From: Hyaloperonospora brassicae
Taxonomy: Eukaryota > Oomycota > Peronosporomycetes > Peronosporales > Peronosporaceae
Assembly (NCBI GenBank): GCA_947650285.1
Contig: CANTFL010000272.1
Coordinates: forward strand, 186,001-250,000
Length of the DNA stretch: 64,000 nucleotides
Direction: 5' to 3'
Each line of letters starts with the position of its first letter. The stretch's first letter is position 1. Of the stretch, positions 3,065 through 34,353 are shown piece after piece. The position numbers and the translations under genes are program-made. A model generated the notes under the pieces. The model was not told the DNA's origin. It worked only from the letters and a program-made list of their open reading frames with translations, and did not search any database.

Positions 3065-3514
3065 TGTAATGGGGTAGCCCGTTACATGAAATTGTCAATA
3101 AAACAATCTGACAATAAAGAATATTACGTTGAATATTCTTTTAACAATATCATAGACATGGTGATAATGTTGGGATGACCGAAGAGTCTACTCATTGGTT
3201 GATATCGTGATGATATCAACTCACAAATTGCTGCTAGACGCGCGCAATGGGTGGTGAGTAGACGCCATCATACATATAGTTATATTCGCATAATTAAGTC
3301 AATACAAACAGAGATTCAAGAAGTTATAGTACTTAATTATATCAATACAGTTTTACTTTTACCAAGAGACTAGTCTGACTACTTAGTCTCCATTCCTTCC
3401 TATGTGTTCCTTAAACACCTAGCAGGGCACTGTCGACCACTGTCGACCACTGTCGTCAGTGGAAGTATACTCCGTACTGGTCAACCAGTACGTTGTCATC
3501 GGTGCCCCGTTACA
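3065..3514 (+). repeat. E1 5' LTR (subtype A)
   Basis: It starts TGTAATGGGG and ends CCCCGTTACA, giving the TG...CA ends of an LTR and a terminal inverted repeat. It is nearly identical to the LTR at 11083-11522 (opposite orientation), but clearly different from the LTR at the other end of this same element (10367-10804). It contains internal perfect inverted repeats such as GTTGATATC/GATATCAAC and GTACTGG/CCAGTAC, and a short duplicated stretch (the CCACTGTCGA repeat near 3430-3450). Confidence 0.9.
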
Positions 3515-3516
3515 CC

Positions 3517-3529
3517 TGGTAGCACTTTA
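3517..3529 (+). other. E1 primer-binding site
   Basis: TGGTAGCACTTTA begins two bases after the 5' LTR. TGG pairs with a tRNA CCA end. The same TGGTAGCAC stands at the equivalent place in E2 (about 18333-18345, minus), E3 (about 33945-33960, minus) and E4 (from 45465). Which tRNA it matches cannot be decided without the tRNA set of the genome. Confidence 0.7.
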
Positions 3530-3564
3530 TATTCCGTCCAAGGACCACACTCGCATCGCCCAAC

Positions 3565-4680
3565 ATGAACATGTTGGACGATGTAGACGGCGAAAGATTT
3601 CACGGAACCCGTGAAAGCTACTCCCATTTGAGCGACATCGATCGGAGTGCGATCGAACGAATGAGTTCGACCGTTGGCGAGGAAGCCATATGGGCCATGC
3701 TATCCTCAAGAGATAGGGACCAGCAACATGTCGTCATTAGCAAGCTCTTGCAACGAGAACTTGATAAGTCGCGAGCGCAGGTGACCTTGTTGCAACAACA
3801 AGATCACCAGCGGACCAAAGCACTGAGACAACAAAAGTCTCAGTCCGCAGAGCCGACGCGTGAGCGTCGACGTAAGTCTCTAAAACTAGAGGTTTCCAAG
3901 TATCGGGGAGTCGAGGAAGACTCCCTGTTGAGGTGGTTCGTCGAGCTGGACGATACCATCGATGCTCGTCGCATCGACGATGAGCGAATGCAAGTCTCAT
4001 TCGCTCAGTTTAACCTGGCAGGAGAAGACAGAGCTTGGGCCCTAAACCTCAAGTTGGACGACCCAAATGTGTTTGGGTCGTTGAATATCTTCAAGACCCT
4101 GCTCAGTGAGACGTTCGAGCCTCCCAGAGCAGAGCTCAGGACTCTTTAGGAGCTCCTGCATTCAAGCAGGGTAATCGTAAGGTTCACCCTTACGCCCAAC
4201 ATGTACGCTACCTTGCAAGCTGCATGATAGTGAACCCTTGAGTGAGTTTGTGTTGATCACAATATTCATTCAAGGGCTGTCCGATGGTCCCGTTAGGGAC
4301 CACCTGTTCCGCGGAGAGCTAAAGACACTCTCCGAAGCAATCTTGGCTGGGGAGCAAGAAGATTAGAGCGTGAGACAGTCTCACACTACGCTGACCCCGC
4401 ATCGTCCACAGAGACGATCAGCGGTCGGAGGTACAGATCCAATGGACCTCTGTAATGTCGAGGTCGAGAAACCTCGCCCTACGAATGACAAGCGATCGGT
4501 GAGATGCAATCGCTGTCATTAACTGGGACACTACGCATATGTTTGCAGTATCCCCCGCTCAGGGCCTCGCGGTGCTGAGCGCAGTAATATTTCACCAGTA
4601 AGAAGAACTGGAGGGCTAGGGTCCGTCGCTGTTGCAAAGCCGCAACAGCGAGGCCAACCATTAAAACATGGTCGGAGTCA
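3565..4680 (+). pseudogene. E1 gag
   Basis: The start ATG 3565 is chosen by alignment with the intact gag of E3. An N-terminal helical region rich in Gln and Arg leads to a capsid-like segment ending FEPPRAELR. A stop at 4147-4149 and later frame changes break the frame. The nucleocapsid knuckle near 4500-4545 (RCNRC...LGHYAYVC) also holds a TAA. Gag would form the particle and bind RNA. E1 and E2 gags differ more from each other than their pol regions do. Confidence 0.85.
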
Positions 4681-4835
4681 GTAGGGGCGGAGCGCCCTAC
4701 TGATCCAGCAACATCGAGAGAATTTGCAAATCTCTTGACGAAGGTTGCTCCCGATTCGCAGTCCCTGTGTGTCTCTGCACTTGGTGATGAGGTGTCTCTC
4801 ATCACCTTGATATTGGAAGTGACAAAAGACTTGTC

Positions 4836-6471
4836 ACTTCGCGCCCTAGTTGACTGTGGGGGCGTCGAACAATTTTTTTCGTCGCCAGTCGCTAGAGGCA
4901 GGAAGTTTTAACTTCGTGGAGCGGGAGATCCCTCCAACGAAGATGACGTTGCGCCTAGCGACAGGCGCATCGATCACTGTAAAGAAACGTGTAGTCGGAA
5001 TCCGCTACACGTTAAAAGGCGAACAGTACGATGATGATTTCATCGTACTCGACCTGGATGACAAGTTCGACGTCATCTTAGGGCTGCCTTGGCTCAGGAC
5101 ATACGAGCCAAGGGTGAACTGACAGTATCGATCGGTTACGATACCTGCCACTTGTTTCTCAGATAACCACCTGACGAATATCTTGGAACGCCCACACTCA
5201 CGTGGGTGTACTACGAGTGAGTGCGATGGTCTCACTCGTGGTACGGTCGTTATTACGAATGTACAAGAACACAATGTAGATGATCACTACATTGTGGAGA
5301 AAGCTCACCCAGATCCTGTGGATGTGATTTCCCAGGAAGTAATCGAGACACTGAATGTCTTGGTTAATGATGGATCAAGCGTAGGCGCTTACACGCTTGA
5401 TCTGGTTGTGCCTCCGAAACTAACTTTGTAGATAACTCAACTACCGACGCTAGAACCGAAACGATTCTTGCGTGATCTGCGCAGTGGCAAAGTCAAGCAG
5501 ATCTGTGTACTCGTCGCGGAGGACGATTACGTTACCGATATTCGATCGGCAAAGGTGTTTACTGAGACCGAGAGTGTTCTCAGCATTTCATCGATGGACG
5601 AAAGTGTCATTGATGAGAAGACTCGGATTGAGAGATATGAATCTCAATCCTGGAAGTCGCTTCAGGCAAATCCTTTGTAAAAGGATTTGATCGAATTCAA
5701 GGACGTATTCCCTGAATCCGTACCTTGCGAGTTGCTTAAGGACAAAGGCACTCGACACGAGATCGAGCCCAAACCGGGATCGATATATTGTGTCATGAAG
5801 CAGTGGCCACTGCCTCGTGAACAAGTGATAGCGTCGACAAGTTCTTTGCCGATCGCTTATCAGCGGGCCATGTGAGGGAATCGACATCCCCTCACAGCTC
5901 CCCGACCTTCTGTGTGCGAAAGGCCACAGAAGGGCGGCGGATAGTGCACGCATTCAACAAATTGAATGCTGCAACGGTACCGGCTCAGACGCCGATACCG
6001 ACGAAGGACGTAATCATAGATGGTATGTCAAAGAGTACCATCTTTTCATCCATGGATCTGATGGACGGATTCTATCAGATCCTTATGCGTGAAAGGGACA
6101 TCCCGATCACAGCAGTGAGTACCCCCAGCATGATGCTGTGGGAGTGGCTAGTGGTGCCACAGGGGCTGAGTAATGCCCCTGCAACATTCAACAGATGTGT
6201 TACAAATCAATTTGAGACCGGTGCGAGACTTCGCACCGAGTTACTTCGACGATGTGTTCGTTTACAGCCGGGCTATGGACGGAAAGACGGACGTTGATGT
6301 TCACAGTACTCACGTCCGTCAGGTTCTTCAACTTATGCGCAAGCATAAGTTGTATGCCAATCTCAAGAAGTGTATATTCCGGCAAGCAAAATATCACATC
6401 TTGGGTGCATCGTATGTAAACACGGCGTCCGCCCTGATCCCGAAAAGATCAAGGCGATCACCGAATAGCTA
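4836..6471 (+). pseudogene. E1 protease and reverse transcriptase
   Basis: The aspartic protease active site LVDCG is at about 4842-4860. A run of five G at 4858-4862, where E3 has four, shifts the frame right at the active site. The protease body continues at 4865-5122 (FIVLDLDDKFDVILG). RT begins near 5690 (EFKDVFPESVP) and continues from 5872 with SPHSSPTFCVRKA, the SSMDLMDGFYQI motif and PQGLSNAPATFN. A frameshift near 6212 separates these from the YFDDVFVYS catalytic motif (about 6238-6270). Stops are also present. The mirror copy in E2 keeps YFDD in frame with the upstream RT. Confidence 0.88.
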
Positions 6472-7326
6472 GTGCCATCCGATGTTAAGGGACTTCGTAA
6501 GTTCCTTGGACTAGCGGCGTACTTGCACAAGTACTCGCGCAACTACGCCGAAATGACGGTATATCTTTCTCGTTTACTCAAGAAAAATGTGAAGTGTTCG
6601 TGGAACGCTGAGTGCCAGCGTTCCTTTGAAAGCATCAAGAAAAGTTTGATGCGATCGACCATCTTGACGATTGCAGATCAGGACAGACCTTTTCATGTGG
6701 TCTGTGACGCCAGCGATTTTGCTATCGGCTGTGCGTTGATGCAGTATGACACAGACGGCGCAGAGCGCGTCGTCTGCTATCAATCGCGTCAGCTGCAACC
6801 ACCTGAACGCAATTACCCAGTGCATGACAAGGAACTCCTTGACATGAAGTATGCACTGGATAAGTTCCGGGTCTATCTCTTGGGAGATAGACCGTTCATC
6901 GTATATACGGACCATGCGTCACTACGCACGGCCGTAAACAGTCCACACCTCTCGCAACGAATGGCGAGGTGGATGTCCTTCTTCGCGGAGTACAACTTCT
7001 CCGTGGAGTATAAACCAGGACGACTTAACGTCGTCGCTGATGCGCTATCACGTCGGCCCGATCTCGAGCCGACAACACGCGCCAACAGTGAGGCATTACC
7101 CACTGTTGCGGCACTGTCAGTCAGTGTGCCTTCATCGCCTTTACTCGATGACGTGCGGAAGGCCTACGCAGGGAATATGATTCTCCCTCATTTGATGGGT
7201 AACCTTGCGAACCCATCCCGGAAATCCTTGTCGGATTTGCCGGCTCTATACCGTTCCTCGTTGGATCGAGTAAACGACTCGCAATGGCCTGCTGTACTAT
7301 ACAGCAGTTGCCGACGACACGCCTAG
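6472..7326 (+). pseudogene. E1 RT connection and RNase H
   Basis: This open stretch of 284 codons covers the RT thumb/connection (GLRKFLGLAAYLHKY) and a Ty3-type RNase H. RNase H residues are visible in VVCDASDFAIG, HDKELLDMKYAL, YTDHASLR and NVVADALSRRPD. Its flanks are frameshifted, so it is a fragment of the polyprotein rather than a separate gene. The E2 copy (14570-15424) differs by only one residue over the whole length. The arms GGAACGCTG (6602-6610) and CAGCGTTCC (6616-6624) are an example of the hairpin pattern in this element. Confidence 0.9.
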
Positions 7327-7351
7327 TGTCGTCGTTCCCGATCATGATGAC

Positions 7352-8617
7352 TTGCGTTTACGCATCATGTTCGAATGTCACGATGCGCCGTCTGGCGGGC
7401 ATCGTGGCCAAGAAAAGACTTACCTTACAGTAAGTCGTGACTTTTACTGGCCCCGCCAGTATCAGTTCGTGCCCAAGTACATACATTCTTGCGAAGTCAG
7501 TCAACGGGTGAAGCCTAGCCCTTCATCCCGTGCACCGTTACAACATCTGCCGGTCACGGCAGAGTGCCGGGAGTCCGTGTTCATGGACTTTGTCTTCGGG
7601 TTCCCCGAAGCCTCTCACAAGAATAATGGTATTCTTGTGTTTGTGGATCGTTTCAGCAAGATGTTACATCTTGATGCAGTCCCAGAATCGATCAACGCCC
7701 ACGGCTGTGCGCGTGTATTCATCGACACTGTGTTTCGACTCCACGGTTTACCCCGTGAACTCGTATCCGACCGTGATCCTCGGTTCATGGCGGCGTTTTG
7801 GCAATCCGTGTTCCGCACATTGGGAACACGGTTGAAGATGTCAACCTCTGACCATCCCGAAACAGATGGTCAGACAGAACGTGCGAACCGTGTCCTCGAA
7901 GAGATTCTTCGTGGATACGTCGACTCCTTTTCACATTGGAGTGAGTTCTTACCGATGGTTGAGTTTGCCATCAACAACTCCGTGCATGCGTCCACAACGC
8001 ATACACTGTTCTACGTGAATTGCTTACGCCACCCACGTATTCCCGCCCTTATACAGAGTGACTCTGAGCTAAGGGGGGGTACTCGCTCGAGCAAAAACCG
8101 TTTTGGCTCTTGCTCATCACGTATCACCGCTCACGCCGATACGTTTGATGCCGATGTCGACGTTGTCGACATCGAGGAAATCGAGTTTAGCAGTAGCGAT
8201 GACGCTGCTGCTACATCAGACAATGATGACGATGCTGGGATATTCAGCATCGTCAACGACAATGCCAGCGAGGGAGAAGACACCCTCTTTGAAGAAGAGA
8301 ACGATCTCTTAGTAGTGCGCACGAAGCGCACTGAAAAACACAACAACGAGTCAGCAGAGAACTTCCTGCTTACTCGAGAGGCGATAGTCCGCTTCGTTCA
8401 AGACTCCATCGCAAATGCGGTGGATCGTCAGAAACGAAACGCAGACAAGAATGGAAGAGCGAATGTTCTTTCATTTAAAGTTAACGACCTAGTGCTACTG
8501 TCTACGGTAAAATTACCTGGACATGTAGTCCCTAGTGTCGGCAGTAGTAAACTACTGCCGAAATACATTGGCCCCTTTCGTGTGTTGCACCGCAAGGGCA
8601 ATGCGTACACGATCTAG
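7352..8617 (+). pseudogene. E1 integrase
   Basis: This open stretch of 421 codons holds the HHCC finger, but its last ligand is Ser (CEVSQRVKP, where E3 has CEVCQRVKP). The catalytic acids are in MDFVFGFP, VSDRDPRF and TDGQTERANRVLEE. An acidic low-complexity insert (about 8130-8320) and the GPF module (KYIGPFRVLHRKG) follow. A TAG ends the frame at 8617, although the sense reading continues as LPRRMRTHSTFYVGRLR. A run of seven G near 8071-8077 corresponds to thirteen C in E2. The missing Cys is shared with E2. Confidence 0.9.
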
Positions 8618-8642
8618 TTGCCTCGCAGGATGCGCACGCATT

Positions 8643-9155
8643 CTACGTTCTATGTTGGTCGTCTCCGCCCGTACTATCAGCACGAAGCCTCTTGAGAGAA
8701 CGGAGACAGCCGGCACGCTCAAGAATCCCCAACAGATTCTTGTGATCACGGACGAAATGCTCAAGTTGGTCCTTCATCGACGCGGTCTCGCGACGAGACT
8801 CTTCTAGCTCGTCGCGCAAACGATGCTTTTTGCGTTCGCTCTCAAGCTGAGCGAACGCAAATTCTGATCGGTCCTTCTTTCGATCGGTACGGAGATGTCG
8901 TACGGTCGCCATCAAGTCGTGCCGACGATCGTATTCGTGATCTACGCCCGCCCTCATCTCGGTCAGGTAACGCTCATGGTTACCCAAAGTCTCCTGCAGA
9001 CCCGGCGGTTGAGCCGGACCTTGTCTTTTCACCGCCACCAGAACCACTGGTGGATTCTCACGGTGGTAGACGCTTTCTTGTGGAGCGTATTTTGGACCAT
9101 CGTGACGATTCAGAATCAAGGACGAGTTACCTCGTCCGGTGGCGTGGGTATCCAC
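8643..9155 (-). other. antisense ORF 2 of E1 (coiled-coil protein)
   Basis: This is a 170-codon open frame on the strand opposite pol. Its second half is highly charged and predicted by eye to be a coiled coil (heptad-like Leu in FAQLESERKKHRLRDELEES and LEHFVRDHKNLLGILERAG). It overlaps the sense linker between integrase and chromodomain and the start of the chromodomain. The same frame is open in E2 (12735-13247). A diverged form is open in E3 (up to 28497) and ends in the same way. It may be a real opposite-strand gene or a by-product of the sense sequence. No homologous family is recognised. Confidence 0.55.
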
Positions 9156-9355
9156 CTTCCTTTGACAGCTGGGAACCTCGTTCCCAGCTGAAGGCTGACG
9201 TTGAAGGTCTCGTCCACCAGTATGACGAGACTCATCCGATTGGTTCTGGGCTCCTCGGTAAACACGCGCTTTTGGCGCTTGTAGACGGGTTGAAAGTTTG
9301 CTATCGCGTCCCGCATCTCCGCCAAGATGTTTGCCCTACCCCAGGGCTAACTTAG
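9050..9355 (+). pseudogene. E1 pol C-terminal chromodomain
   Basis: The motif FLVERILDHRDD, then [10 protein letters not shown] and SWEPRSQL, is a typical chromodomain: three aromatic-cage positions and the W-x-G-Y/H-P core. In chromoviruses this domain follows integrase and steers integration to certain chromatin. Here it is separated from the integrase frame by a Pro/Ser-rich linker and stops. The opposite strand is also open across its 5' part. Confidence 0.88.
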
Positions 9356-10235
9356 GGAATACACGTCCCTATGTGCACGTTGCGAGTTGTCAACACAACA
9401 CGCACAAGGATCACCCCAAGTGAGGCAAGGAATGTCTGCCTCACTTGAAAAACGATGCAGCCGGTACCTTTCACCGGTTGGCGTTCGTTTTCGAACTTGA
9501 TGCGTATCGCCTCAAGCTTCTTAAGCCACCCTTCTCGTCCAAAATTCTTGACATTTGGGACGAACAAGTTCCCCGCCGCCAAAAGCGAGTTCTTGTCACG
9601 CTTTTGGTTGCCATTGTACCATCGATGCTTCAAGAAAGCATCGAGATAAAAGTCTTCCTCAGCGCGAAAGTTCTTCGCGCTGGAACTCAAGCCGTGAAGC
9701 TCACTCGCATCGAATAATAGAATTCGATGGTGCTGGCTTGACTCGTGAGACAGGCTATCGATGAGCTGGTCGGGCCAGTGCCACGGCTTGAGCTCATCAC
9801 GCTTCGAATTGGTACCTTTGCCGGTACCACGGCTTTCATGATTACGATGGCGAGAGCCATCGTCATTACGCTCTTGCGAGGAAGCACGAGTTGATACTGG
9901 TGAGGCATAGTATTCCTCACCACAGAATTCATCATTACTGCCGAACAGACTGTATTTCATTTCACGAGTCCGCTCGTTCGACAGTTCTCTTGACGAACGA
10001 TGAGGCACCGCCGATGACCGGGATGCCTCTGGAACGTTGCGCGAGTCATACACATCTGACTCGCCATAATGATGACCTTATTGCCAAGGTCATCATGTGC
10101 ACGTGGTGCGATAGCGCGTGCGTCTGCAGCACCTTCTGCTGCAGACGGAGAACAAGCAGCAGACGACGAAGCGTCTGCCGCAGAGGCTGGCACAGCAGTA
10201 GGCTGTGTGGTCTTCGAGTCACCTCGCATAGACAT
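9352..10235 (-). other. antisense ORF 1 of E1
   Basis: The frame starts at ATG 10235, inside the loop of a perfect hairpin (CCTCGCATAG/CTATGCGAGG), with MSMRGDS as first residues. It is Ala/Ser-rich at first. After a one-base deletion near 10065 it continues in the frame 9352-10053, which includes KRDELKPWHWPDQLI, HHRILLFDASELHGL and KNFGREGWLKKLEAI. It ends at CIP-stop, a stop shared with E2 and E3. It reads from just inside the 3' LTR towards pol, so it would need its own promoter. No known domain was recognised. E3 carries a diverged but clearly related protein. Confidence 0.6.
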
Positions 10236-10353
10236 GTTAACTATGCGAGGCAAGGTCAGGAGTGAATGGGTCTGAACAAACAAGTGCTACCTGTCCTACT
10301 GGTGTCCAACGGATGGCCATGGAGTTTTCGATAGTCACACGGTGACTATCAGT

Positions 10354-10366
10354 TAAGGGAGGGTGA
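10354..10366 (+). other. E1 polypurine tract
   Basis: AAGGGAGGGTGA lies directly in front of the 3' LTR, as expected for the plus-strand primer of an LTR element. E2 (11523-11535, minus) has the same tract in mirror position. Confidence 0.7.
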
Positions 10367-10804
10367 TGCAACGGGGTAGACCGTTACATTAAATTGTCAA
10401 TAAAACAATCTGACAATAAAGAATATTACGTTGAATATTCTTTTAACAATATCACAAGCATGGTGATAATGTTGGGATGACCGAAGAGTCTACTCATTGG
10501 TTGATATCGTGATGATATCAACCCACCAATCGCTGCTAGACGCGCGCAATGGGTGGTGAGTAGACGTCACCATACGTTTAGTTACACTACTATAATTAAG
10601 TCAGGACAAACAGAGATACAAGAGTTATAGTACTTAATTATAATAATAACATTTTTGCTTTTCCTACGACTAGAGTCTTTCACCTTAGTCGTTCTATCTT
10701 CTTCTGTGTAGTTCTACACCTAGCTGGGCACTGACTATCACTACAGTCAGTGATAGTAAACTATGTACTGGCCAACCAGTACGTAGTCGTCGGTGCCCGT
10801 TACA
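10367..10804 (+). repeat. E1 3' LTR (subtype B)
   Basis: It starts TGCAACGGGG and ends GTGCCCGTTACA. It differs from the 5' LTR of E1 over much of its U3/R part but matches the LTR at the far right end of E2 (18348-18514 plus 22281-22555), for example in the stretch read as CTAGGTGTAGAACTACACAG on the minus strand. The base T-to-C change at its third position is shared with the E2 3' LTR. The outer flank is GTTGA (10805-10809). Confidence 0.9.
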
Positions 10805-11082: not shown

Positions 11083-11522
11083 TGTAACGGGGCACTGTCG
11101 ACTACGTACTGGTTGAACAGTCCGGAGTATACTTCCACTGACGACAGTGGTCGACAGTGCCCTGCTAGGTGTTTAAGGAACACATAGGAAGGAATGGAGA
11201 CTAAGTAGTCAGACTAGTCTCTTGGTAAAAGTAAAACTGTATTGATATAATTAAGTACTATAACTTCTTGAATCTCTGTTTGTATTGACTTAATTATGCG
11301 AATATAACTATATGTATGATGGCGTCTACTCACCACCCATTGCGCGCGTCTAGCAGCAATTTGTGAGTTGATATCATCACGATATCAACCAATGAGTAGA
11401 CTCTTCGGTCATCCCAACATTATCACCATGTCTATGATATTGTTAAAAGAATATTCAACGTAATATTCTTTATTGTCAGATTGTTTTATTGACAATTTCA
11501 TGTAACGGGCTACCCCGTTGCA
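11083..11522 (-). repeat. E2 3' LTR (subtype A)
   Basis: It begins TGTAACGGGG and ends ACCCCGTTGCA (plus strand). It is nearly identical to the E1 5' LTR in inverted orientation, apart from changes in the first 40 bases and one fewer copy of a short CCACTGTCGA-like repeat. The outer flank is TGGAA (11078-11082). Confidence 0.9.
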
Positions 11523-11654
11523 TCACCCCTCCCTTAACTGATAGTCACCGTGTGACTATCGAAAACTCTATGGCCATCCGTTGGACACCAGTAGGACAGG
11601 TAGCACTTGTTTGTTCAGACCCATTCACTCCTGACCTTGCCTCGCATAGTTAAC

Positions 11655-12538
11655 ATGTCTATGCGAGGTGACTCGAAGACCACACAGCCTACTGCTGTGC
11701 CAGCCTCTGCGGCAGACGCTTCGTCGTCTGCTGCTTGTTCTCCGTCTGCAGCAGAAGGTGCTGCAGACGCACGCGATATCGCACCACGTGCACATGATGA
11801 CCTTGGCAATAAGGTCATCATTATGGCGAGTCAGATGTGTATGACTCGCGCAACGTTCCAGAGGCATCCCGGTCATCGGCGGTGCCTCATCGTTCGTCAA
11901 GAGAACTGTCGAACGAGCGGACTCGTGAAATGAAATACAGTCTGTTCGGCAGTAATGATGAATTCTGTGGTGAGGAATGCTATGCCTCACCAGTATCAAC
12001 TCGTGCTTCCTCGCAAGAGCGTAATGACGATGGCTCTCGCCATCGTAATCATGAAAGCCGTGGTACCGGCAAAGGTACCAATTCGAAGCGTGATGAGCTC
12101 AAGCCGTGGCACTGGCCCGACCAGCTCATCGATAGCCTGTCTCACGAGTCAAGCCAGCACCATCGAATTCTATTATTCGATGCGAGTGAGCTTCACGGCT
12201 TGAGTTCCAGCGCGAAGAACTTTCGCGCTGAGGAAGACTTTTATCTCGATGCTTTCTTGAAGCATCGATGGTACAATGGCAACCAAAAGCGTGACAAGAA
12301 CTCGCTTTTGGCGGCGGGGAACTTGTTCGTCCCAAATGTCAAGAATTTTGGACGAGAAGGGTGGCTTAAGAAGCTTGAGGCGATACGCATCAAGTTCGAA
12401 AACGAACGCCAACCGGTGAAAGGTACCGGCTGCATCGTTTTTCAAGTGAGGCAGACATTCCTTGCCTCACTTGGGGTGATCCTTGTGCGTGTTGTGTTGA
12501 CAACTCGCAACGTGCACATAGGTACGTGTATTCCCTAA
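11655..12538 (+). other. antisense ORF 1 of E2
   Basis: This is the counterpart of 9352-10235 in E1, with the same one-base deletion (near 11822) that moves the frame from 11655-11933 to 11837-12538. It starts in the loop of the CCTCGCATAG/CTATGCGAGG hairpin. The protein is Ser/Ala-rich, then contains KPWHWPDQLIDSLSHE and the helical FRAEEDFYLDAFLKHRWYNG. The stop after GTCIP is shared by all three copies. Function unknown. Its direction, pointing inward from the 3' LTR, would suit an antisense promoter in that LTR, which is inference only. Confidence 0.6.
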
Positions 12539-12840
12539 GTTAGCCCTGGGGTAGGGCAAACATCTTGGCGGAGATGCGGGACGCGATAGCAAACTTTCAA
12601 CCCGTCTACAAGCGCCAAAAGCGCGTGTTTACCGATGGGCCCAGAACCAATCGGATGAGTCTCGTCATACTGGTGGACGAGACCTTCAACGTCAGCCTTC
12701 AGCTGGGAACGAGGTTCCCAGCTGTCAAAGGAAGGTGGATACCCACGCCACCGGACGAGGTAACTCGTCCTTGATTCTGAATCGTCACGATGGTCCAAAA
12801 TACGCTCCACAAGAAAGCGTCTACCACCGTGAGAATCCAC
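12535..12840 (-). pseudogene. E2 chromodomain
   Basis: It is the same as the E1 chromodomain ([30 protein letters not shown]), apart from small changes after the ETHPIGSG motif. It is detached from the integrase frame. The opposite strand is open through it (12735-13247). Confidence 0.88.
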
Positions 12841-13247
12841 CAGTGGTTCTGGTGGCGGTGAAAAGACAAGGTCCGGCTCAACCGCCGGGTCTGCAGGAGA
12901 CTTTGGGTAACCATGAGCGTTACCTGACCGAGATGAGGGCGGGCGTAGATCACGAATACGATCGTCGGCACGACTTGATGGCGACCGTACGACATCTCCG
13001 TACCGATCGAAAGAAGGACCGATCAGAATTTGCGTTCGCTCAGCTTGAGAGCGAACGCAAAAAGCATCGTTTGCGCGACGAGCTAGAAGAGTCTCGTCGC
13101 GAGACCGCGTCGATGAAGGACCAACTTGAGCATTTCGTCCGTGATCACAAGAATCTGTTGGGGATTCTTGAGCGTGCCGGCTGTCTCCGTTCTCTCAAGA
13201 GGCTTCGTGCTGATAGTACGGGCGGAGACGACCAACATAGAACGTAG
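12735..13247 (+). other. antisense ORF 2 of E2 (coiled-coil protein)
   Basis: This 170-codon frame is identical in residues to the one in E1. It is Pro-rich near residue 40-55, and from residue 85 on it is a charged Leu-containing helix (coiled coil by eye), ending in a basic tail. It lies opposite the integrase-chromodomain linker. E3 has an equivalent charged helix ending KNLMDVLERGGYLHRKKKAR. Confidence 0.55.
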
Positions 13248-26370: not shown

Positions 26371-26761
26371 TGTAACGGGGCACACCCTTGCGTGAATTTA
26401 ACGCAAGGGTTTCGGTGCCCCGACAGACGTACACGTGGCAAGCGAGGAAGCGTAGGTAGGGTAGAAGCAGAACTGTTGTATTAATATAATTAAGTCTTTT
26501 AACTACTGTCTCTCTGTTTGACTTAACTTGATTATGTTAATATAACTGAGTGTATGGTGACGTCTCGTCACCTTTCATTGCGCGCGTCTTGCGGCGATTG
26601 GTGGGTTGATATCATCAAGATATCAACCAATGAACAGACTCTTTGGTCGACCCTTCAATATCACCACTTTGGTGATATTGTTTAAAGAATATCCAACTTC
26701 ATATTCTTTATTGTCACTTTCAGGAAAGTGACAATATCATGTAACGGGCTGCCCCGTTACA
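26371..26761 (-). repeat. E3 3' LTR
   Basis: It begins TGTAACGGGGCACACCC and ends GCTGCCCCGTTACA. It differs from its partner at 33963-34353 by a few percent, including changes in the CCTTGCGT/ACGCAAGG stem near its start. The polypurine tract lies beside it (26762-26773, minus strand). Confidence 0.9.
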
Positions 26762-26893
26762 TCACCCACCCTTGACTGATAGTCACCGTGTGACTATCGA
26801 AAAATATGGCGGCCACCCGTTGGCCACCATTGGGACAGGGAGCACTTGTTGGGTCCGTTCCATTCACTTTCCGCTTGACCTCGCATAGTTAAC

Positions 26894-27580
26894 ATGTCTA
26901 TGCGAGGTGACTCAAGACCTACACAGCCCGGTGCTGTGTCAGCCTCTGCGGCAGACGATTCGTCGTCTGCTGCTCCTTCTTCGCCTGCAGCAACAGGTGC
27001 TGCAGGTGCACGCGGCACCTCACCGCGTGCGCATGATGACCTCGACGTAGAGGTCATCTACTCTGTCGAGTCAGACGTGTCTGACTCGGGCAATGCGCCA
27101 GAGGCGTTTCGCTCACCGGCGACGCCTCTGTGTTCGCCAAGGCCACTGCCGAACGAACGGACTCGTGAGTTGCAACACAGTCTGTTCGGCAGTGATGACG
27201 TATCGGGTTATGAGTATGTTTGCTCATCACCGCAATCAGCTCGTGCTCCTTCGCACGAGCGACTTGACGATGGTGGAACCCATCGTCATACTGACAACCG
27301 TGGTACCGACAAGGGTACCACTGTGAAGCGTGATGAGCTGAAGCCGTGGCGTTTGCCCGAACAACTCATCAATAGCCTGTCTCACGAGACAAGCCAACAC
27401 CATCGAATACCATTATTCGATGCGAGTGAGCTTCACGGCTTGAGTTCCAGCGCGAAGAACTTTCGCGCTGAAGAAGATTTTATCTCGATGTCTTTCTTAG
27501 ACATCGATGGTACAACAGCAATCAAAAGCGTGACAAAGCATCGCTTTTGGCTGCGTGGAACGCGTTCGTCCAAAACGTAA
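26894..27580 (+). other. antisense ORF 1 of E3
   Basis: 228 codons, starting MSMRGDSRPTQPGAV in the loop of a 10-bp hairpin (arms 26879-26888 and 26898-26907). The frame runs through the point where E1/E2 have a deletion, so this copy preserves an earlier form: NERTREL, KRDELKPWRLPEQLI, HHRIPLFDASELHGL, NFRAEEDF. A one-base deletion near 27480, relative to E1/E2, then changes the frame. Related sequence continues in 27587-27778 up to the shared CIP stop. No known domain was recognised. Confidence 0.6.
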
Positions 27581-27669
27581 AGAATTTTGGACGAGAAGGG
27601 TGGCTCAAGAAACTTTAGGCGACACGCCTCAGGTTCGAAAGGAGAACGCCAACCGGTGCTAGGTACCGG

Positions 27670-28497
27670 TTGCATTGTTTTTCGAGTAAGGCAGGCATTC
27701 CTTGCCTCACATGGGGAGACCCTTGTGCGAGTTGTGATGACAACTCGCAGCGTGCACATAGGGATGTGTATTCCCTAAATTCGCCCTGGGGAAGGGCACA
27801 CATCTCGGCTGAGATGCGTGACGCGATTGCAAACTTGCAATCCGTCTACAAGCGCCAAGAGCGCGTGTTTACCGATGGGCCACAGGACTCATCGGATGGG
27901 TCTCGTCATACTGGCGGACGAGACCTTCAACATCCATCAACAGCTGAGAGCGGGGCTCCCAGCTGTTCCAAGAGGGTGGATATCCCCGCCACTGGACGAG
28001 ATAGCTCGTCCTTGATCCTGAATCGTCACGGTGATTCAAGATACGCTCCATTAGAAAGCGTTGATCACCGTGAGCATCCACCAAAGGATGTGGTGGAGAA
28101 GGAAAGACCTCATCCAGATGATTCGGTTCACCATCTCGACCCTTACGAGATGGATAGCGCAATCGATGAATTTAGCGATGACTTGAAGCACGAGCGCGAC
28201 CGGCGCTACGCTTTTACCGATATCGTGCGGAAGAACCGCAAGAATCACGAGGCTGATCGGGCGAGGGATCGCGCCGATTATGCCACAGCGCAGCTTCAGG
28301 TCGAGCGGGATGTCCGCTCCCTATTCGTCGAGCTGGCGACAGCTCGCGGGGAGATATCTCGGTTGAGCTCCGAGGTATCATATCTACGCGACCAGACGGA
28401 TCGTCTGGAGCGCGAACGCAAGAACTTGATGGATGTTCTTGAACGTGGGGGCTATCTTCATCGGAAGAAGAAGGCTCGTACTGACAATACGACCTAA
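27670..28497 (+). other. antisense ORF 2 of E3 (coiled-coil protein)
   Basis: 275 codons open on the strand opposite pol. [19 protein letters not shown] and [15 protein letters not shown] match E1/E2. The C-terminal 100 residues are strongly charged with Leu and Val heptads (DRLERERKNLMDVLERGG), a probable coiled coil, and end in KKKAR. It is longer and more continuous than in E1/E2. It overlaps the chromodomain (27869-28162, minus) and the linker. Confidence 0.6.
27869..28162 (-). pseudogene. E3 chromodomain
   Basis: FLMERILNHRDD, SYLVQWRGYP and SWEPRSQL mark the domain. It is separated from integrase by the linker and frame breaks. Confidence 0.87.
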
Positions 28498-29470
28498 GCC
28501 TCCCCACGTAAAACGTAGGATGCGTGCGCATCCTACGTGGCAATTCGAGTGGGTATGTATTGTTCTTGCGATGCAACACTCGAAATGGCCCAATGTATTT
28601 CGGCAGTAGTTTACTACTGCCGACACTAGTGACTGCATGTCCAGGTAAGTTTACCGTAGACAGTAGTACTAGGTCATTAACCTTAAATGAAAGAACATTT
28701 TCTCTTCCATTCTTGTCTGCGTTCCGTTTCTGACGGTCCACCGCATTTGCGATGGAGTCCTGAACGAAACGGGCTACCGCTTCTCGAGTCAGCAGGAAGT
28801 TCTCTGCTGACTCTTTGTTTTGTCTGTCAGTGCGCTTCGTGCGCACTGCTAAGAGATTTCTCTCTTCTTCAGCGTGGTTGTCTTCTTCCTCGCTGGCATA
28901 ATCGTTGACGATGCTGAATATACCAGCATCGTCATCATCATCCGAGTCAATAATAGCGTCATCGCTATTTTATTGAGGCGATCTTCTTCATCGATGTCGA
29001 CTTGATCGACATCGGCATCATACGTGACGACGTTAGCGGCGACACCTGATGAGCAAGAACCAAAACGGTTTTTGCTCGAGCGAGTCCCTCCCCACTCTTA
29101 TCCAAGAGTTACACTCTATAAGGGTGGGCACTCGTGGATGGCGTAGGCCATTCACGTAAAACGGTGTGTGCTGTGTTGAAGCATCCACCGAATTATTGAT
29201 GGCGAATTCCACCATGGGTAGGAATTCGCTCCAACTCGGAAACGAGTGGACATATCCTCGAAGAATCTCTTCGAGGACACGGTTCGCACGTTCCGTCTGA
29301 CCATCTGTTTCTGGATGGTCAGAAGTGGACATCTTCAATCGTGTTCCGAGAGTACGGAACACGGTTTGCCAAAATGCCGCCGTGAACCGAGGGTCACGGT
29401 CGGATACGAGTTCACGGGGTAACCCGTGGAGTCTAAAGACCGTGTCTAGAAAGACACGAGCACAACCTTG
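28214..29470 (-). pseudogene. E3 integrase, core and C-terminal part
   Basis: Pieces at 29033-29362 (TDGQTERANRVLEE, the catalytic Glu) and 28214-28846 (GPF module KYIGPFRVLHRKN, then a Ser/Pro/Arg-rich tail) are in different frames. The acidic insert between them carries stops. The catalytic Asp motif SDRDPRF lies near 29390-29410. Confidence 0.85.
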
Positions 29471-29482
29471 AGCCTTGATCGA

Positions 29483-30598
29483 CTAAGGGAATGCAGCAAG
29501 ATGGACCATCTTGCTAAATCGGTCTACAAACACAAGAATACCATTATTCTTGTGAGCGTCTTCAAGAAACCCGAAGACGAAGTCCATTGAAACGGACTGC
29601 CAGCACTCTGTCGAAACAGGCAGAGGCTGCAATGGCGCACGGGATGAAGGACTAGGCTTCACCCGTTGGCAAACCTCGCAAGCACGTATGTACTTGCGAA
29701 CTAACTGATACTGGCGGGGCCAGTAAAAGTCACGACTTACCGTGATGTAAGTCTTTTCTCTACCACGATGGCCGCTTGTTGGGGCATCGTGACACTCATA
29801 CATGATGCGCAAACGCAAATCATGATGAGCGGGTACGACGACACGAGGCGTGTCGTCGGCAACAGCTGTATGGTACAGCAATCCGTTGCGTGTACTATAC
29901 CGATCCGATGAGGATCGGTACAAAGCCGGTAAATCCCTCGTGGATTTACTGGATGGATACACCAGATGATCCATCAATCGCAGAAGATCCTTATCTTCCG
30001 CGTATGCCTTTCGTACGTCGTCAAGTAAACTTGACGACGGGACACTGACTGAAAGTGTCGCAACAGTGGGCTTATCCTCACTGTTGATTTGTGCGTCCGG
30101 CTCGAAATCGGGCCGGCGTGAAAGAGCATCAGCGACGACATTGAGTCGTCCTGGTTTATACTCCACGGAGAAGTTATACTCCGCGAAGAAAGACAGCCAC
30201 CTCGCCATCCTTTGCGAGAGATGTGGGCTGTTTACGGCCGTGTGTAATGACGCATGGTCCGTATAGACGATGAACGGTCTATCTCCCAAGAGATAGACGC
30301 GAAACTTAGCCAGTGCGTACTTCATGGCAATGAGTTCCTTGTCCTGCACTGGGTAATTACGCTCAGCTGCTTGCAGCTGACGCGACTAATAACAGATGAA
30401 GCGCTCCGCGCCATCTGCATCGAACTGCATTGACGCACAGCCGATTGCGAAATCGCTGGCGTCATAGACCACATGAAATGGTCTGTCCTGATCTGCAATC
30501 ACCAAGATCGGCGATTGCATCAAGCTTTGCTTGATACCCTCAAAGGAACGCTGACAGTCAACGTTCCATGACCACTTGACATTTTTTTGAGCAAGCAA
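29483..30598 (-). pseudogene. E3 RNase H and integrase N-terminus
   Basis: The open stretch 30349-29483 holds the RNase H end (YTDHASLHTAV, VVADALSRRPD), the intact HHCC finger (ending ACEVCQRVKP) and the first integrase Asp (SMDFVFGF). Upstream piece 30386-30598 has VVYDASDFAIG. A stop separates them at about 30386. Confidence 0.87.
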
Positions 30599-31701
30599 GA
30601 AAGATGAACAGTCATCTCGGCGTAATTGCGCGAGTACATGTGCAAGTACGCCGCTAGTCCAAGGAACTTACGAAGTCCCTTGACATCGACTGGCACTGGC
30701 CAGTCGGTGATCGCCTTGATCTTTTCGGGATCAGGGCGTACGCCGTGTTTACCCACGATGCATCCAAGAAGTGGTATTTCGCTAGCCGCGAATATACACT
30801 TCTTGAGGTTGGCGTACAACTTATACTTGCGCATAAGTTGAAGAACCTGACGAACGTGAGCTTTGTGAACTTCAACGTCCGTCTTTCCGTCCATAGCCCG
30901 ACTATGGACGAACACATCGTCGAAGTAACCCGGTGCGAAGTCTCGCACCGGTCTCAACAGATTTGTGACACATCTGTTGAATGTTGCAGGGGCATTACTC
31001 ATCCCCTGTGGCATCACTAGCCACTCCCACAGCATCCCGCTGGGGGTACTTACTGCCGTGAACGGGATGTCCCGTTCACGCATCAGGATCTGATAGAATC
31101 CATCCATCAGATCCATGGACGAATAGATGGTACTCTTTGACATACCATCTATGATTACGTCCTTCCTCGGTATCGGCGTCTGAGCCGGTACCGTTGCAGC
31201 ATTCAACTTGTTGAATGCGTGCACTATCCGCCGCCCTCCTGTGGCCTTTCGCACACAGAAGGTCGGAGAGCTGTGAGGGGATGTTAATTCCCTCACATGG
31301 CCCGCTGATAAGCGATCGGCAAAGAACTTGTCGATCGCTAGTACTTGTTCACGAGGCAGTGGCCACTGCTTCATGACACAATGTATAGAGCCCGGTTTGA
31401 GCTCGATCTCGTGTCGAGTGCCTTTGTCCTTAAGCAACTCGCAAGGTACGGATTCAGGGAACACATCCTTGAATTCGATCAAATCCTTATACAAAGGATT
31501 TGCCTGAAGCGACTTCCAGGATTGAGACGTGTATCTCTCAATCCGAGTCTTCTCATCAATGACACTTTCGTCCATCGATGAACTGCTGAGAACACTCTCG
31601 GTCTCAGTAAACACCTTTGACGATCGAATATCGGTAACGTACTCGTCCTCCGCGACGAGTACACAGATCTGATTGACCTTGCCACTGCGCAGATCACGCA
31701 A
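30520..31701 (-). pseudogene. E3 reverse transcriptase
   Basis: 393 codons are open, with FKDVFPESVP, SPHSSPTFCVRKA, SSMDLMDGFYQI, PQGMSNAPATFN, catalytic YFDDVFVHS and the thumb motif GLRKFLGLAAYLH. This is the best preserved RT of the three copies. It runs out of frame at the start of the RNase H. Confidence 0.9.
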
Positions 31702-31737
31702 GAATCGTTTCGGTTCTAGCGTCGGTAGTTGAGTTAT

Positions 31738-32640
31738 CTACAAAGTTAGTTTCGGAGGCCCAACCAGATCAAGCGTATAAGCGCCTACGCTTGATCCGTC
31801 ATTCACCAAGACGTTCAACGTCTCGGTTTCTTCCTGGGAACTTTCTTCCTCAGGTTTATGAGGGCCTGATCCCTCAGCAAGTGACTCTTGAGGAATTCCT
31901 TTCGCAAGTACGTGGGGACTTATTCCCTCGACGTCTTTCGACTGTGGCTGTGCAACCACAGTCAGGCACCGATCCTCTACGGTCGACTCTCCAGTCGACC
32001 TAGGATTTCCATGTTGCCCCTTGGGGGCAACAGGTTTCTTTTTCTAAGATGCTGCCCGCTAGGCATGCATCCATGTCCCGGTCCACTCGACTTATTCGAG
32101 TGGTGGACTTTCGACGCAGCCTGTACCTCTGTACAGCCGCCGGGAGCTTGCTCCACAGTGTAGTGATCAACTACACTGTGATCTTGTGCAGTCGTGCTAA
32201 CGACCGTACCGCAAGTGAGGCCATCGCACTCACTCGCAGAACATCCACACGCTTGTGGACGCTCCATGACGTTCATCAGATGACCATCTGATGAACAAGC
32301 GGCAGGCATCTTCACGGATCGATGCTGCCAGCTCACCCTTGGCTCGTACTTTCTGAGCCAAGGTAATCCCAGGATGACATCAAATTTGTCATCCAGATCT
32401 AGTACGATGAAGTCATCATCGTACTATTCGCCCTCTAACGTGTAGTGGATTCCTACTACACGTTTCTCAACGGTTATCGATGCGCCTGTTGCAAGGCGCA
32501 CCGTCATCCTTGTGAGGGGAATGTCGCGCTCAACGAACTTGAGCCTACGACCCTCTAGTGACTGGCGTCGAACAAAGTTATCGACGCCCCACAGTCTACT
32601 AGGGCACGAAGCGACAAATCATTTGTCGCTTCCAACTTCA
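31738..32640 (-). pseudogene. E3 protease and linker to RT
   Basis: The active site reads VDCGAS in frame (four C at 32587-32590), without the extra base found in E1/E2. Stops follow inside the protease body and a variable linker continues to the RT. The linker is longer and different from that in E1/E2. Confidence 0.78.
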
Positions 32641-32763
32641 AGGTGATGAGCGAAACGTCATCACCAGGTGCAGAGACACACAATGATTGTGTATCTGGAG
32701 CAACTTTCGTCAAGAGATTTGCAAATTCTCTTGAGGTTGCTGGAACAGTAGGGCGCTCCGCCC

Positions 32764-33918
32764 CTACTGACCCCGACCATTTTTTGATGGTCCGTCTCGC
32801 TGTTGCGGCTTCGCAACAGCGCTGGACCCACGCCCATTGCCCTTTCTGGCAAATTGTCGTCCATTTCGCTCAGTACTGTTTGGTACTGGGCGTGGAGCAC
32901 TACACTCGTATGCGTAGTGCCCTAACTTCTGACAGCGATTGCACCTCTGCAATCGCTTGTTGTTTGAAAAGCGAGGTCTCTCGCTCTCAACATAGCAGAG
33001 GTCCATTGGTTCTGGACCTCCGATCTCTTGTCGTCTCGGTGGACGATAAGAGTTTGAGCTAGCATGAGCCTGTCTCATGCTTAAGTCTTCCTGTTCCGCG
33101 GCTGATATCGCATCTTCCAGCGTATTCAGCTCAAGGCGGAACAGGTGGCTCCTGACGGGCCCCTCTGCGAGCCCTTGCATGAACACCGTAATCAACGTGT
33201 GTTCATGTACTGGGTTAGCAGTTACAAGACTCGCAAGGAGTCGTATATGTTGTGCGTAAGCGTGCACATCACGCTTACCCTGCTTGAGTTTCAGGAGCTC
33301 TGAACGAGCCCTGAACTCAGCCCGTGGCGGCTCAAACGTTTGTCTGAGCCGGGACTTGAAGTCATCTAGCGACCTCAACACATTTGGGTCGCTACTCTCG
33401 AGTCCCAGGGACCAAGTTTTGGCACACCCTGCCAAGTGGGTCTGAGCAAATGTGAGTTTCATTTGCTCATCCTCGACGCGACGAGCCCTTAGGGCTCTGT
33501 CGAGTTCGATAAACCATAGTAACAGGGAGTCCTCCGGGACTCCACTGTACTTGAAGATGTCAACTTTCATGACTTCGGGACGACGCGCATGCGCCGTCCC
33601 GCCCACAGCAGCATGGAATTGCTTCTGTCTCAACAGCTCCGTCTGTTGAGCACCGAGTTCTCTCAACTTCTCGGCCTGTTGAGAGCCTTGCTGGTGAAGC
33701 AAGGCTACTTTCTCCCTCTCGATGGCAAGTTCATTTTGAATGAACTTGGCGATAGCGGCATGTTGTCGGTCTCTGTCAAGAGACTCCAACATGGTGCTAA
33801 CGACGAGTTCGCCTACATTAGAACTCATTCGTTCTACTGCACCCCATTCGATGTCACTCAAATGGGTAAACCCTTCACGCGTGGCGTGAAAGGTGTCTTC
33901 TTCATCCAACATGTTCAT
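32764..33918 (-). CDS. E3 gag (intact open frame)
   Basis: 384 codons from ATG 33918, inside the same CCAACAT/ATGTTGG hairpin as in E1. The N-terminal half is helical (Gln/Glu/Arg-rich, about residues 55-100). A capsid-like region holds LLLWFIELDRALRARR and FEPPRAEFRARSELLKLKQG. A CX2CX4HX4C knuckle CNRCQKLGHYAYEC is at about residue 330, and the C-terminus is basic. This is the only gag of the three copies without a stop, although pol of the element is broken. Confidence 0.88.
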   Translation of the reverse strand: MNMLDEEDTFHATREGFTHLSDIEWGAVERMSSNVGELVVSTMLESLDRDRQHAAIAKFIQNELAIEREKVALLHQQGSQQAEKLRELGAQQTELLRQKQFHAAVGGTAHARRPEVMKVDIFKYSGVPEDSLLLWFIELDRALRARRVEDEQMKLTFAQTHLAGCAKTWSLGLESSDPNVLRSLDDFKSRLRQTFEPPRAEFRARSELLKLKQGKRDVHAYAQHIRLLASLVTANPVHEHTLITVFMQGLAEGPVRSHLFRLELNTLEDAISAAEQEDLSMRQAHASSNSYRPPRRQEIGGPEPMDLCYVESERPRFSNNKRLQRCNRCQKLGHYAYECSAPRPVPNSTERNGRQFARKGNGRGSSAVAKPQQRDGPSKNGRGQ

Positions 33919-33962
33919 GTTGGATGTTGTGGTCCTTGGAAGGACTACAAAGTGCTACCAGG

Positions 33963-34353
33963 TGTAACGGGGCACACCCTTGCGTGAACTTAACTCAAGG
34001 CTTTCGGTGCCCCGACAGACGTACACGTGGCAAGCGAGGAAGCGTAGGTAGGGTAAAAGAAGAACTGTTGAATTAATATAATTAAGTCTTTTAACTACTG
34101 TCTCTCTGTTTGACTTAACTTGATTATGTTAATACAACTGAGTGTATGGTGACGTCTCGTCACCACTCATTGCGCGCGTCTTGCGGCGATTGGTGGGTTG
34201 ATATCATCAAGATATCAACCAATGAATAGACTCTTTGGTCGACCCTTCAATATCACCACTTTGGTGATATTGTTTAAAGAATATCCAACTTCATATTCTT
34301 TATTGTCACTTTCCTTAAAGTGACAATTCCATGTAACGGGCTGCCCCGTTACA
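33963..34353 (-). repeat. E3 5' LTR
   Basis: It has the same length and ends as 26371-26761. The primer-binding site (minus strand TGGTAGCACTTTG) lies just left of it, near 33947-33960. Confidence 0.9.

Follow-up and report, generated by a model that had tools for sequence, protein, structure and literature searches.

The Ty3 retrotransposons of this 64,000-nucleotide stretch of DNA (the window) are filled with short perfect hairpins, far in excess of chance, and in all the sequence that we sampled this excess is confined to Ty3 families. It is probable, judging from the sequence, that selection has tiled whole elements, LTRs as well as genes, with local hairpins whose stability is set. We also lean, with slightly less assurance, towards a wider reading, in which a clade of oomycete Ty3 elements is under a structural set-point: selection would write the synonymous sites so that the whole element folds into a row of distinct hairpins, each minimal and all of similar stability, whose stem length would be read by a family-specific partner. 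If true, the element carries over its whole length a second code on top of the protein code, and hairpin density, not position, is what is selected.

Ty3 elements of the window

E1 (3065..10804, + strand) has LTR-like ends at about 3065-3514 and 10367-10804 and belongs to a family with 8-10 bp hairpins, of which it carries about 60 that are perfect with arms of at least 8. E2 (11083..18514, - strand), of the same family, matches E1 at 97% identity along most of its sequence; it is seemingly interrupted by a MULE-bearing stretch, and an LTR piece lies at about 22296-22460. E3 (26371..34353, - strand) represents a separate subfamily, whose identity to E1 is 82-86% in much of pol and in the 3' part, and 76% further 5'. 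Its two LTRs, at 26371-26761 and at 33963-34353, share 96% identity, and 91 hairpins with arms of at least 8 are found in 26504-34260. The initial annotation had named these three elements as hairpin-rich, which stands, but the window's other Ty3 element, E4 (44932..52381, or about 44.9-52.4 kb, + strand), is also rich, with stems of 5-6 bp. E4 belongs to a related family, with 64-67% nucleotide identity over part of pol; its ends were set by the repeat pair 44932-45211 / 52102-52381, and its hairpin count covers 45200-52000.

The domain content is that of Ty3/Gypsy LTR retrotransposons of the chromovirus type. Retrotrans_gag and Ty3_capsid are above cut-off in the gag open frame of E3 (32764..33918, - strand) and in L023, a copy elsewhere in the genome; zinc knuckle matches are below the Pfam cut-off in both, yet a CCHC motif is present in L023. 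(A link between zinc knuckle presence and stem length across families, hinted at by Pfam, was overturned by a motif scan.) In E3, RVT_1 (reverse transcriptase frame at 30520..31701, - strand) is followed by RT_RNaseH and Integrase_H2C2, and E1 has RT_RNaseH, then Integrase_H2C2 and rve, the last below cut-off. The third frame of L023 adds SH3_Tf2-1 and Chromo, both above cut-off, that is, a chromodomain after the integrase. Paired LTRs were found, and by eye L023 has a TGGT-type site after the LTR, the putative primer binding site (PBS), as well as a run of purines preceding the 3' LTR.

Hairpin density compared with shuffled sequences

Hairpins were counted as perfect arms of at least 8 with a loop of 2-15, and each stretch was compared with 20 dinucleotide shuffles. 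E1 contains 59 against 1.3 in the shuffles, E2 (part 11266-18000) 50 against 1.1, and E3 91 against 1.7. Elsewhere in the window, counts at this arm length come close to chance: 1 against 0.9 in 1-3064, 6 against 1.1 in 18001-26503 (which includes the E2 tail), 5 against 3.2 in 34354-55367, and 2 against 1.6 in 55368-64000. With shorter arms, E4 has 151 hairpins against 56 at arm 5, and 37 against 15 at arm 6.

Open frames taken from the window were further compared with 100 synonymous-codon shuffles each. At arms of at least 8, the gag, RT and RNase H frames of E3 have 12, 14 and 8 hairpins against 0.5 (maximum 3), 0.4 (maximum 3) and 0.3 (maximum 2), and the IN and RNase H frames of E1 have 7 and 4 against 0.5 (maximum 4) and 0.2 (maximum 3). 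Two copia frames, at arms of at least 5, stay within their shuffles (27 against 32.2 and 27 against 24.6), as do the host ADH (24 against 16.3, maximum 26) and ArfGap (17 against 15.0) frames; one copia frame has no hairpin with arms of at least 8, against 0.4. The copia element at 36379..41349 (- strand), our negative control inside the window, gave counts near those of its shuffles, and the copia, MULE and host stretches sampled were without the tiling. Eight background flank stretches were chosen by hand from the loci retrieved.

The initial annotation had listed 12 arm pairs, all of which are exact reverse complements at the positions given. Its claim that E1-E3 are saturated with hairpins proved an understatement, and the count that it proposed, against both codon-preserving and dinucleotide shuffles, places the stem density of these elements outside the shuffle range; its impression that copia elements and host genes lack such density also holds. 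Chance or composition could in principle produce hairpins, and we found no point in support of this. Against it stand ratios of 45-54 over dinucleotide shuffles at arms of at least 8, and Ty3 frames that exceed the maxima of their synonymous-codon shuffles, with the short E4 RNase H frame as the exception (13, maximum 14). In the pol of a further element, E5, the count is far out of range at arms of at least 8 (35, maximum 4), and within it only at arm 5 (73, maximum 84). The two kinds of shuffle leave this explanation practically no probability, and we rule it out.

Copies and families elsewhere in the genome

Seven further copies of the E3 subfamily have 91-116 hairpins each, and the excess is present in every kilobase of the element. 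Tiling with stems of a different length marks two more Ty3 families, that of E4 (5-6 bp) and another (8-9 bp), so that the mode by family is 5-6, 8-9 or 8-10 bp. In L023, arms of 7 to 13 (loops 2-12) number 23, 34, 34, 31, 8, 4 and 1, with a mode at 8-10 bp, a dip at 7 and a steep drop beyond 10. E4 hairpins are typically 5+3+5 nt, the preference for 3-nt loops having been measured in two further copies of that family, L032 and L033.

Decay alone was considered for the differences in number. It fits inside the E3 subfamily, where copies with 116, 115, 113, 113 and 98 hairpins have LTR identities of 100, 99.2, 99.7, 100 and 97.7%, but L004 and L006, whose LTR pairs are more than 99% identical, have only 65 and 69 hairpins; the number is therefore not set by age alone. 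Nor are individual hairpins retained between distant elements: only 2 of 44 pol hairpin positions are common to E3 and E5, against 0-2 in shifted controls. What persists is thus hairpin density, while single hairpins turn over.

Stem energies and folding

Longer stems in L023 are poorer in GC (0.60, 0.54, 0.49 and 0.42 at arms 8, 9, 10 and 11), and the standard deviation of its stem energy is 2.58 against 3.61 in the null, with 0 of 300 nulls as low. The same narrowing is seen in L030 and L006 (0 of 300 nulls each), in E5 (0.010) and in E4 (0.007). Mean stem energies are -13.7 to -14.4 kcal/mol in L023, L030, L006 and E5, -12.7 in L004 and -5.8 in E4. In the E1-E3 family stem energies are narrowed by trading length for GC content. 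Over the nine copies tested, this trade is significant in four (L023, L030, L006 and L032), negative but non-significant in four others, and absent in E5 (rho 0.01).

Loops are AT-rich in five sets, but not in L035; asymmetry of A/T between the strands reaches significance in L023 alone, and its sign is reversed in E4. No motif stood out as common to the most frequent 3-5 nt loops of the four copies tabulated. RNA folding of the element was computed in 300-nt pieces; the folding excess is the same on the sense and antisense strands. For 120-nt windows of L023 the median folding z is about -5 and the mean folding energy -48.4, of which -16.8, or about 50%, goes beyond shuffles. Stems pair third codon positions with each other in 7 of 51 cases in L023 pol. 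The stems of L023 overlap neither its presumed PBS (0 of 18 nt) nor its presumed PPT (0 of 14 nt), a weak sign as much of the sequence is stem-free.

Changes within stems

The initial annotation reported that the arms of E2 and E3 stems change together, and its three examples are indeed in register, at an offset of 15239-15240. The E3 stems at 27035..27058 and 27101..27128 (both - strand) show a joint change of both arms relative to E2 (11796-11819 and 11861-11888), and at 27486..27506 (- strand; E2 counterpart 12247-12267) two neighbouring pairs differ, both compensated. Covariation is seen as well in copies elsewhere in the genome, in a comparison that omitted hairpins with gaps or unaligned ends. 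Fixed changes in E1-group stems comprise 16 doubles, 13 of them Watson-Crick, against 4-7 doubles of any kind in slid controls, for copy pairs that are non-independent, the E1-group copies having a common history. A group's shared state was taken to be its commonest one, carried by at least 60-70% of the copies, so that minor states may be hidden. The covariation tally dropped 68 cells without data and 46 that were polymorphic, of 1071 in all; for E1-group stems it dropped 27 polymorphic cells of 595. The tally of fixed changes and polymorphism dropped 62 + 14 polymorphic of 845.

Stems are also less polymorphic than their surroundings, with synonymous variation down by almost half: over five copies, 26 of 460 synonymous sites vary inside stems and 142 of 1388 outside (p 0.0026), and beyond the counted frames the figures are 8 of 320 and 70 of 1295 (p 0.029).

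The question is then by which process the stems were made. The initial annotation offered two causes, selected structure and copying of one arm onto the other by template switching; narrow energies, fewer stem polymorphisms and transition-rich two-sided changes argue for the former, and the latter is disfavoured. Quasipalindrome or template-switch mutation yields perfect inverted repeats and paired changes, and a reverse transcriptase folding back on its product could make or mend stems without selection. Such a process would fit stems that are perfectly Watson-Crick, that show little preference for wobble, that have a length specific to each family and that are restricted to Ty3. Its signs were sought in both near and distant copy pairs; hairpins with gaps or unaligned ends were omitted, which for each L023 comparison removed 3-80 of 116. 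Nine comparisons were between more distant copies: of 110 hairpins with at least four broken pairs, 7 had all their changes in one arm, four of these at one site, but this is not above chance, which for four changes is about 1 in 8. Among alignable hairpins at 3-6% divergence, at least four differing pairs were seen in 0 of 113 and 0 of 111, and in a third close comparison (110 hairpins) the single six-pair case consists of three changes per arm. Even-handed conversion predicts that about half of the missing single changes become doubles, and the doubles are too few: L023 compared with L030, L031 and L019 gives 2, 4 and 6 Watson-Crick doubles, while single-sided changes number 27, 58 and 48, and E1-group stems give 0-3 per comparison in 13 comparisons. 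Moreover, compensated doubles have 18 transitions to 6 transversions, instead of the roughly 1:1 expected from copying; such a bias is predicted by two independent steps, and it departs from single-sided stem changes (44:54) and non-stem changes (418:375). Since copying would also give no reason for narrowed stem energies, we consider it improbable.

If pairing were selected in one RNA strand, G-U should be favoured over A-C, and in the E1-E3 family it is not clearly so, a point that an account in terms of RNA alone has to explain. G-T:A-C ratios in one-mismatch stems are 10:12, 8:11, 17:14 and 14:15 in E1, E2, E3 and L023, those in fixed states 24:20 and 4:5, with 8:10 on an overlapping stem set; the ratio is 115:78 for E3 against L019, and, in sliding windows, 56:38 in L030 and 45:71 in L004. 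E5 leans towards G-T inside stems (8:2 and 3:1) but not at their ends (7:11 and 7:7). In E4, G-T is at background (14 against 12.8) and A-C beneath it (7 against 12.3).

The near equality of G-T and A-C, like the strand symmetry of the signal, would also suit selection at the DNA level, on hairpins or cruciforms formed by cDNA, whether single- or double-stranded, or by integrated DNA. However, energies are narrower under RNA than DNA parameters in four of five sets, although the contrast is weak (standard deviation relative to the null 0.70, 0.68, 0.85 and 0.80 against 0.80, 0.78, 0.90 and 0.91; E4 0.857 against 0.854), and cruciform extrusion is poor for short arms. We give this possibility little weight.

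The trait under selection would rather be the folded transcript, that is, the genomic RNA and perhaps an antisense transcript too. One purpose could be to evade RNA silencing: hairpins too short for Dicer would shield genomic and antisense RNA, and small RNAs derived from them, from intermolecular pairing. A need on two strands fits the symmetry between strands, and also fits G-U not being clearly preferred in E1-E3, and an antisense open frame of 538 aa with third-position bias in L023 suggests an antisense transcript. Phytophthora has 25-nt small RNAs, described as mostly derived from transposable elements (PMC3804510), beside which 107 of 116 L023 hairpins span 20-29 nt. This match in length fails in E4, whose hairpins are off small-RNA length; besides, families that share a host differ in stem length, and tiling is absent from the tested copia, MULE and host stretches. 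Silencing escape appears unlikely, if still a serious candidate. Because stem design varies by family within one host, and the copia element tested is without tiling, we tentatively place ahead of it a purpose in which the element's own Gag/nucleocapsid condenses or packages its genomic RNA, and hold this purpose with less confidence than selection on structure itself.

Comparison with known systems

Genome-scale ordered RNA structure, an excess of local folding throughout the genome, coding regions included, has been linked to escape from host sensing (PMC3950689). The Ty3 folding excess likewise spans the whole element and goes beyond composition and coding, but it is found in an LTR retrotransposon, as separate perfect hairpins of narrow, family-specific stem length, and equally on both strands. 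Typical folding values in that class are probably smaller than those of L023. The folding proposed here would thus resemble that of some RNA viruses, in a stronger form made of separate hairpins.

The genomic RNA of yeast Ty3, likewise of Ty3 type, has stable motifs and binds Gag; the sections consulted present its structure as complex, built on a stable core and including named cis elements, and no whole-length array of perfect 8-10 bp hairpins (PMC11381356). Dispersed packaging signals of RNA viruses are numerous stem-loops, redundant with one another and spread over the genome, which the coat protein reads (PMC6281560). They share a recognition motif, whereas no shared loop motif stood out in the four Ty3 copies tabulated. 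Template-switch products differ as well, in that no one-step, multi-base births of one arm were seen above chance and doubles depart from the spectrum of single changes.

We found no earlier description of such an element in the titles and abstract openings of the open-access literature, subscription papers lying outside this search, and we know of no other retroelement in which structure drives codon choice to this extreme. Several families do so at once in a genome that offers natural controls (copia, MULE, host genes and hairpin turnover between families), which makes it testable why some RNA genomes fold over their whole length. Synonymous-site clocks and measures of codon usage may mislead in such elements.

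Searches of viral_contigs and genome_contigs with an RT piece or alignment found no relatives in other species, and the feature was therefore examined in one genome only. At the protein level, named relatives among the 120 matches listed of 1752 come from Pythium, Peronospora, Phytophthora, Globisporangium and Peronosclerospora; one match among these 120 belongs to an assembly labelled bacterial.

Hairpin density in the Ty3 elements

Counting perfect stems with an arm of at least 8 and a loop of 2-15, we found 59 hairpins in E1, 50 in E2 (11266-18000) and 91 in E3, three Ty3 elements of one family, against 1.3, 1.1 and 1.7 in dinucleotide shuffles. All 12 arm pairs quoted in the initial annotation are exact at their positions, and the stem density to which it drew attention is far above chance. 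Beyond the elements in the window, counts per kilobase are 0-2, and the flanks of the loci fetched elsewhere in the genome have 0.19 hairpins per kb (8 stretches, 25.7 kb, chosen by us as outside elements). Synonymous-codon shuffles, which preserve protein and codon usage, leave almost no stems, so that the stems in genes are made by codon choice: in L023, a copy of the E3 subfamily, pol contains 57 hairpins against 1.4 (max 4, 40 shuffles) and gag 16 against 0.5 (max 3), and the window's own Ty3 frames give the same picture. The impression that copia lacks this density also stands, as the copia and host stretches tested are close to shuffles at every arm length. A MULE stretch has a slight excess at 5 and 6 bp (41 vs 30.8; 14 vs 8.7) and none above 6 bp. 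The MULE transposase frame (20971-22056, minus strand), with a MULE domain and a weak FAR1 match, lies between the E2 body and the E2 distal LTR piece and has no long-hairpin excess.

Copies and families

Seven copies of the E1 group fetched nearly whole (L003-L009) carry 45-69 hairpins each; the remaining 13 loci of the same fetch, which are partial, nested or E3-like copies, carry 4-96. Counts in the E3-subfamily copies L023 to L027 are 116, 98, 115, 113 and 113, with 104 in L030, 91 in L031, 52 in the more distant L028 and 10 in a 5 kb locus with an old fragment (L029). In L023, arm lengths peak at 8-10 with a steep drop beyond 10, and hairpins span 18-33 nt, together covering 35% of the element. 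Tiling is present in all parts (per kb: gag 13.8, pol 13.9, third frame 9.2, 3' region 18.1, LTR 17.9).

Stem lengths differ among the three Ty3 families examined, all of which are tiled. In the family of E4 (window copy, L032 and L033) long stems are nearly absent, but 5-bp stems number 151-168 where 56-58 are expected, and 6-bp stems 37-48 where 13-15 are expected; its pol gives 149 against 57 in codon shuffles (sd 7.4, max 71, 40 shuffles), and 3-nt loops are strongly preferred (54 vs 5.2 in L032). A third family was located through a search with a Globisporangium RT; in its sampled copies, L034 and L036, hairpins are most numerous at arm 8 (33-34 vs 1.4-1.6), followed by 17 and 4; its variant L035 is weaker (17, 13 and 7 for arms 8-10).

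Some copies show signs of a complex history. Among L003-L009, copies whose LTR pairs are 97-99% identical are about 10% apart from one another in the body and have broken frames, which suggests that mobilisation has included damaged copies. The E1 LTRs (3065-3514 and 10367-10804) are just 83% identical to each other, the 5' LTR sharing 96% identity with the one at the 3' end of the inverted neighbour E2 (11083-11522); the pair looks like a mosaic. Identity to other subfamilies changes abruptly around 3698 in L028 and around 4362 and 8094 in L018, a pattern that recombination or nested insertion would give.

Evolution of stem pairs

The arms had been said to change together at aligned sites, and this is borne out in 338 ordered copy pairs, which are not independent. 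In three divergence classes, double changes number 400, 439 and 897 against 177, 173 and 260 under independence and 199, 226 and 427 in a register-slid control with slightly fewer cells; most are Watson-Crick (275, 307 and 608). Scoring fixed changes from states common to group members, we counted, in the 67 E1-group stems (595 pair cells), 13 compensated changes, 2 further doubles and 15 single-sided changes. The reverse comparison, on L023 hairpins (1071 cells), gives 24, 4 and 98, the last because many L023 hairpins are missing or imperfect in the E1 group. Stems therefore come and go.

Could template-switch copying of one arm onto the other, which makes perfect stems, be the cause? This hypothesis is disfavoured. 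At 3-6% divergence no hairpin has a one-arm change of at least 4 bases, and in nine more distant comparisons only 7 of 110 hairpins with at least 4 broken pairs have their changes confined to one arm, 4 of these 7 at a single site; 4 random changes would all fall in one arm with a chance of 1/8. Among close copies, Watson-Crick doubles number just 2, 4 and 6 beside 27, 58 and 48 single-sided changes in the L023 comparisons, and 0-3 in each of 13 E1-group comparisons. Compensated doubles are transition-rich, as two-step change predicts. Of the two causes initially proposed, selected structure is favoured, by narrow stem energies and fewer synonymous polymorphisms in stems, and copying is not, given the one-arm changes and doubles.

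With stems defined from the E1 group only, synonymous sites in L023, L025-L027 and L030 are polymorphic at 0.057 in stems and 0.102 outside (p 0.0026), and sites outside counted frames at 0.025 and 0.054 (p 0.029); in these five copies, polymorphism at codon positions 1 and 2 shows no difference between stems and other sequence. Between the pol genes of E3 and of E5, the third Ty3 family, a common centre is seen for only 2 of 44 hairpins, with 0-2 in shifted controls; tiling thus persists while individual hairpins turn over. First codon positions are less alike in stems (0.550) than outside (0.655), hinting that stems may carry a small protein cost.

Stem energy

The spread of stem energies in L023, L030 and L006 is below every one of 300 nulls, and as narrow a spread occurs in 0.010 (E5) and 0.007 (E4) of nulls. 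Stem GC content in L023 is 0.60 in 8-bp stems and drops to 0.42 in those of 11 bp. GC content correlates negatively with length in L023, L030, L006 and L032, where the correlation is significant, and in L028, L004, L005 and L035, where it is not; E5 shows no correlation. Mean energies lie between -13.7 and -14.4 kcal/mol in L023, L030, L006 and E5, the latter reaching a similar value with shorter, GC-richer stems; in L004 the mean is -12.7. We read these sequence-based energies as pointing to selection that would hold stem stability to a set level, most clearly in the E1-E3 family.

Strand and possible purpose

If the genomic RNA alone mattered, stems should admit G-U more readily than A-C. 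The two are about equal overall in the E1-E3 family, single comparisons leaning either way; E5 may favour G-U within its stems (8:2 and 3:1), and in E4 A-C is under background. The folding excess is the same on sense and antisense strands, which perfect stems give for free, and loops have no steady strand bias.

An antisense open frame of 538 aa lies opposite the 3' third of L023 (element coordinates 5859-7475), and in two pieces each in E3 (26879-28497, plus strand) and E1 (8643-10077, minus strand). In the region that lacks a sense frame, the positions at which most E1-group copies depart from L023 fall mostly on antisense third codon positions (35, 32 and 72 of about 331 each). The predicted product has weak coiled-coil-like Pfam matches only.

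As to purpose, we place packaging or condensation of the hairpin-tiled RNA slightly ahead of silencing escape, with low confidence in either. Packaging would be performed by the element's own proteins, which would explain why stem design varies by family inside one host and why copia is without tiling. Silencing escape would explain the two-strand character, and agrees with the antisense open frame and with the 25-nt small RNAs from transposons described in Phytophthora (PMC3804510).

Known systems and relatives

The closest known kind is the genome-scale ordered RNA structure of viruses (PMC3950689). The structure of yeast Ty3 RNA has been probed, and passages of that study (PMC11381356) on the structure describe no such hairpin array; nor did we find, judging by titles and abstract openings in the open-access literature, a report of an LTR retrotransposon built in this way. 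We therefore call the hairpin-tiled Ty3 a new, extreme form of a known phenomenon.

The window's host alcohol dehydrogenase has 91% identity to that of Hyaloperonospora arabidopsidis. Among the matches listed, the E3 RT (30520-31701, minus strand) has 81% identity to a Pythium oligandrum protein and 85% to a protein from Peronospora matthiolae, with 75-88% for Peronospora (some partial) and about 56-71% for Phytophthora RTs. The dehydrogenase and RT identities point to a downy-mildew-like oomycete, near H. arabidopsidis though probably distinct from it. The E3 RT thus appears nearer to Pythium oligandrum and Peronospora than to the Phytophthora listed, which would be uneven for vertical descent. 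In the L023 locus, the C-terminal part of integrase (SH3_Tf2-1 and chromodomain) occupies a separate frame (5355-6587) that overlaps the end of the pol frame (1591-5607) by about 250 nt, which suggests that frameshifting or splicing may join the two.
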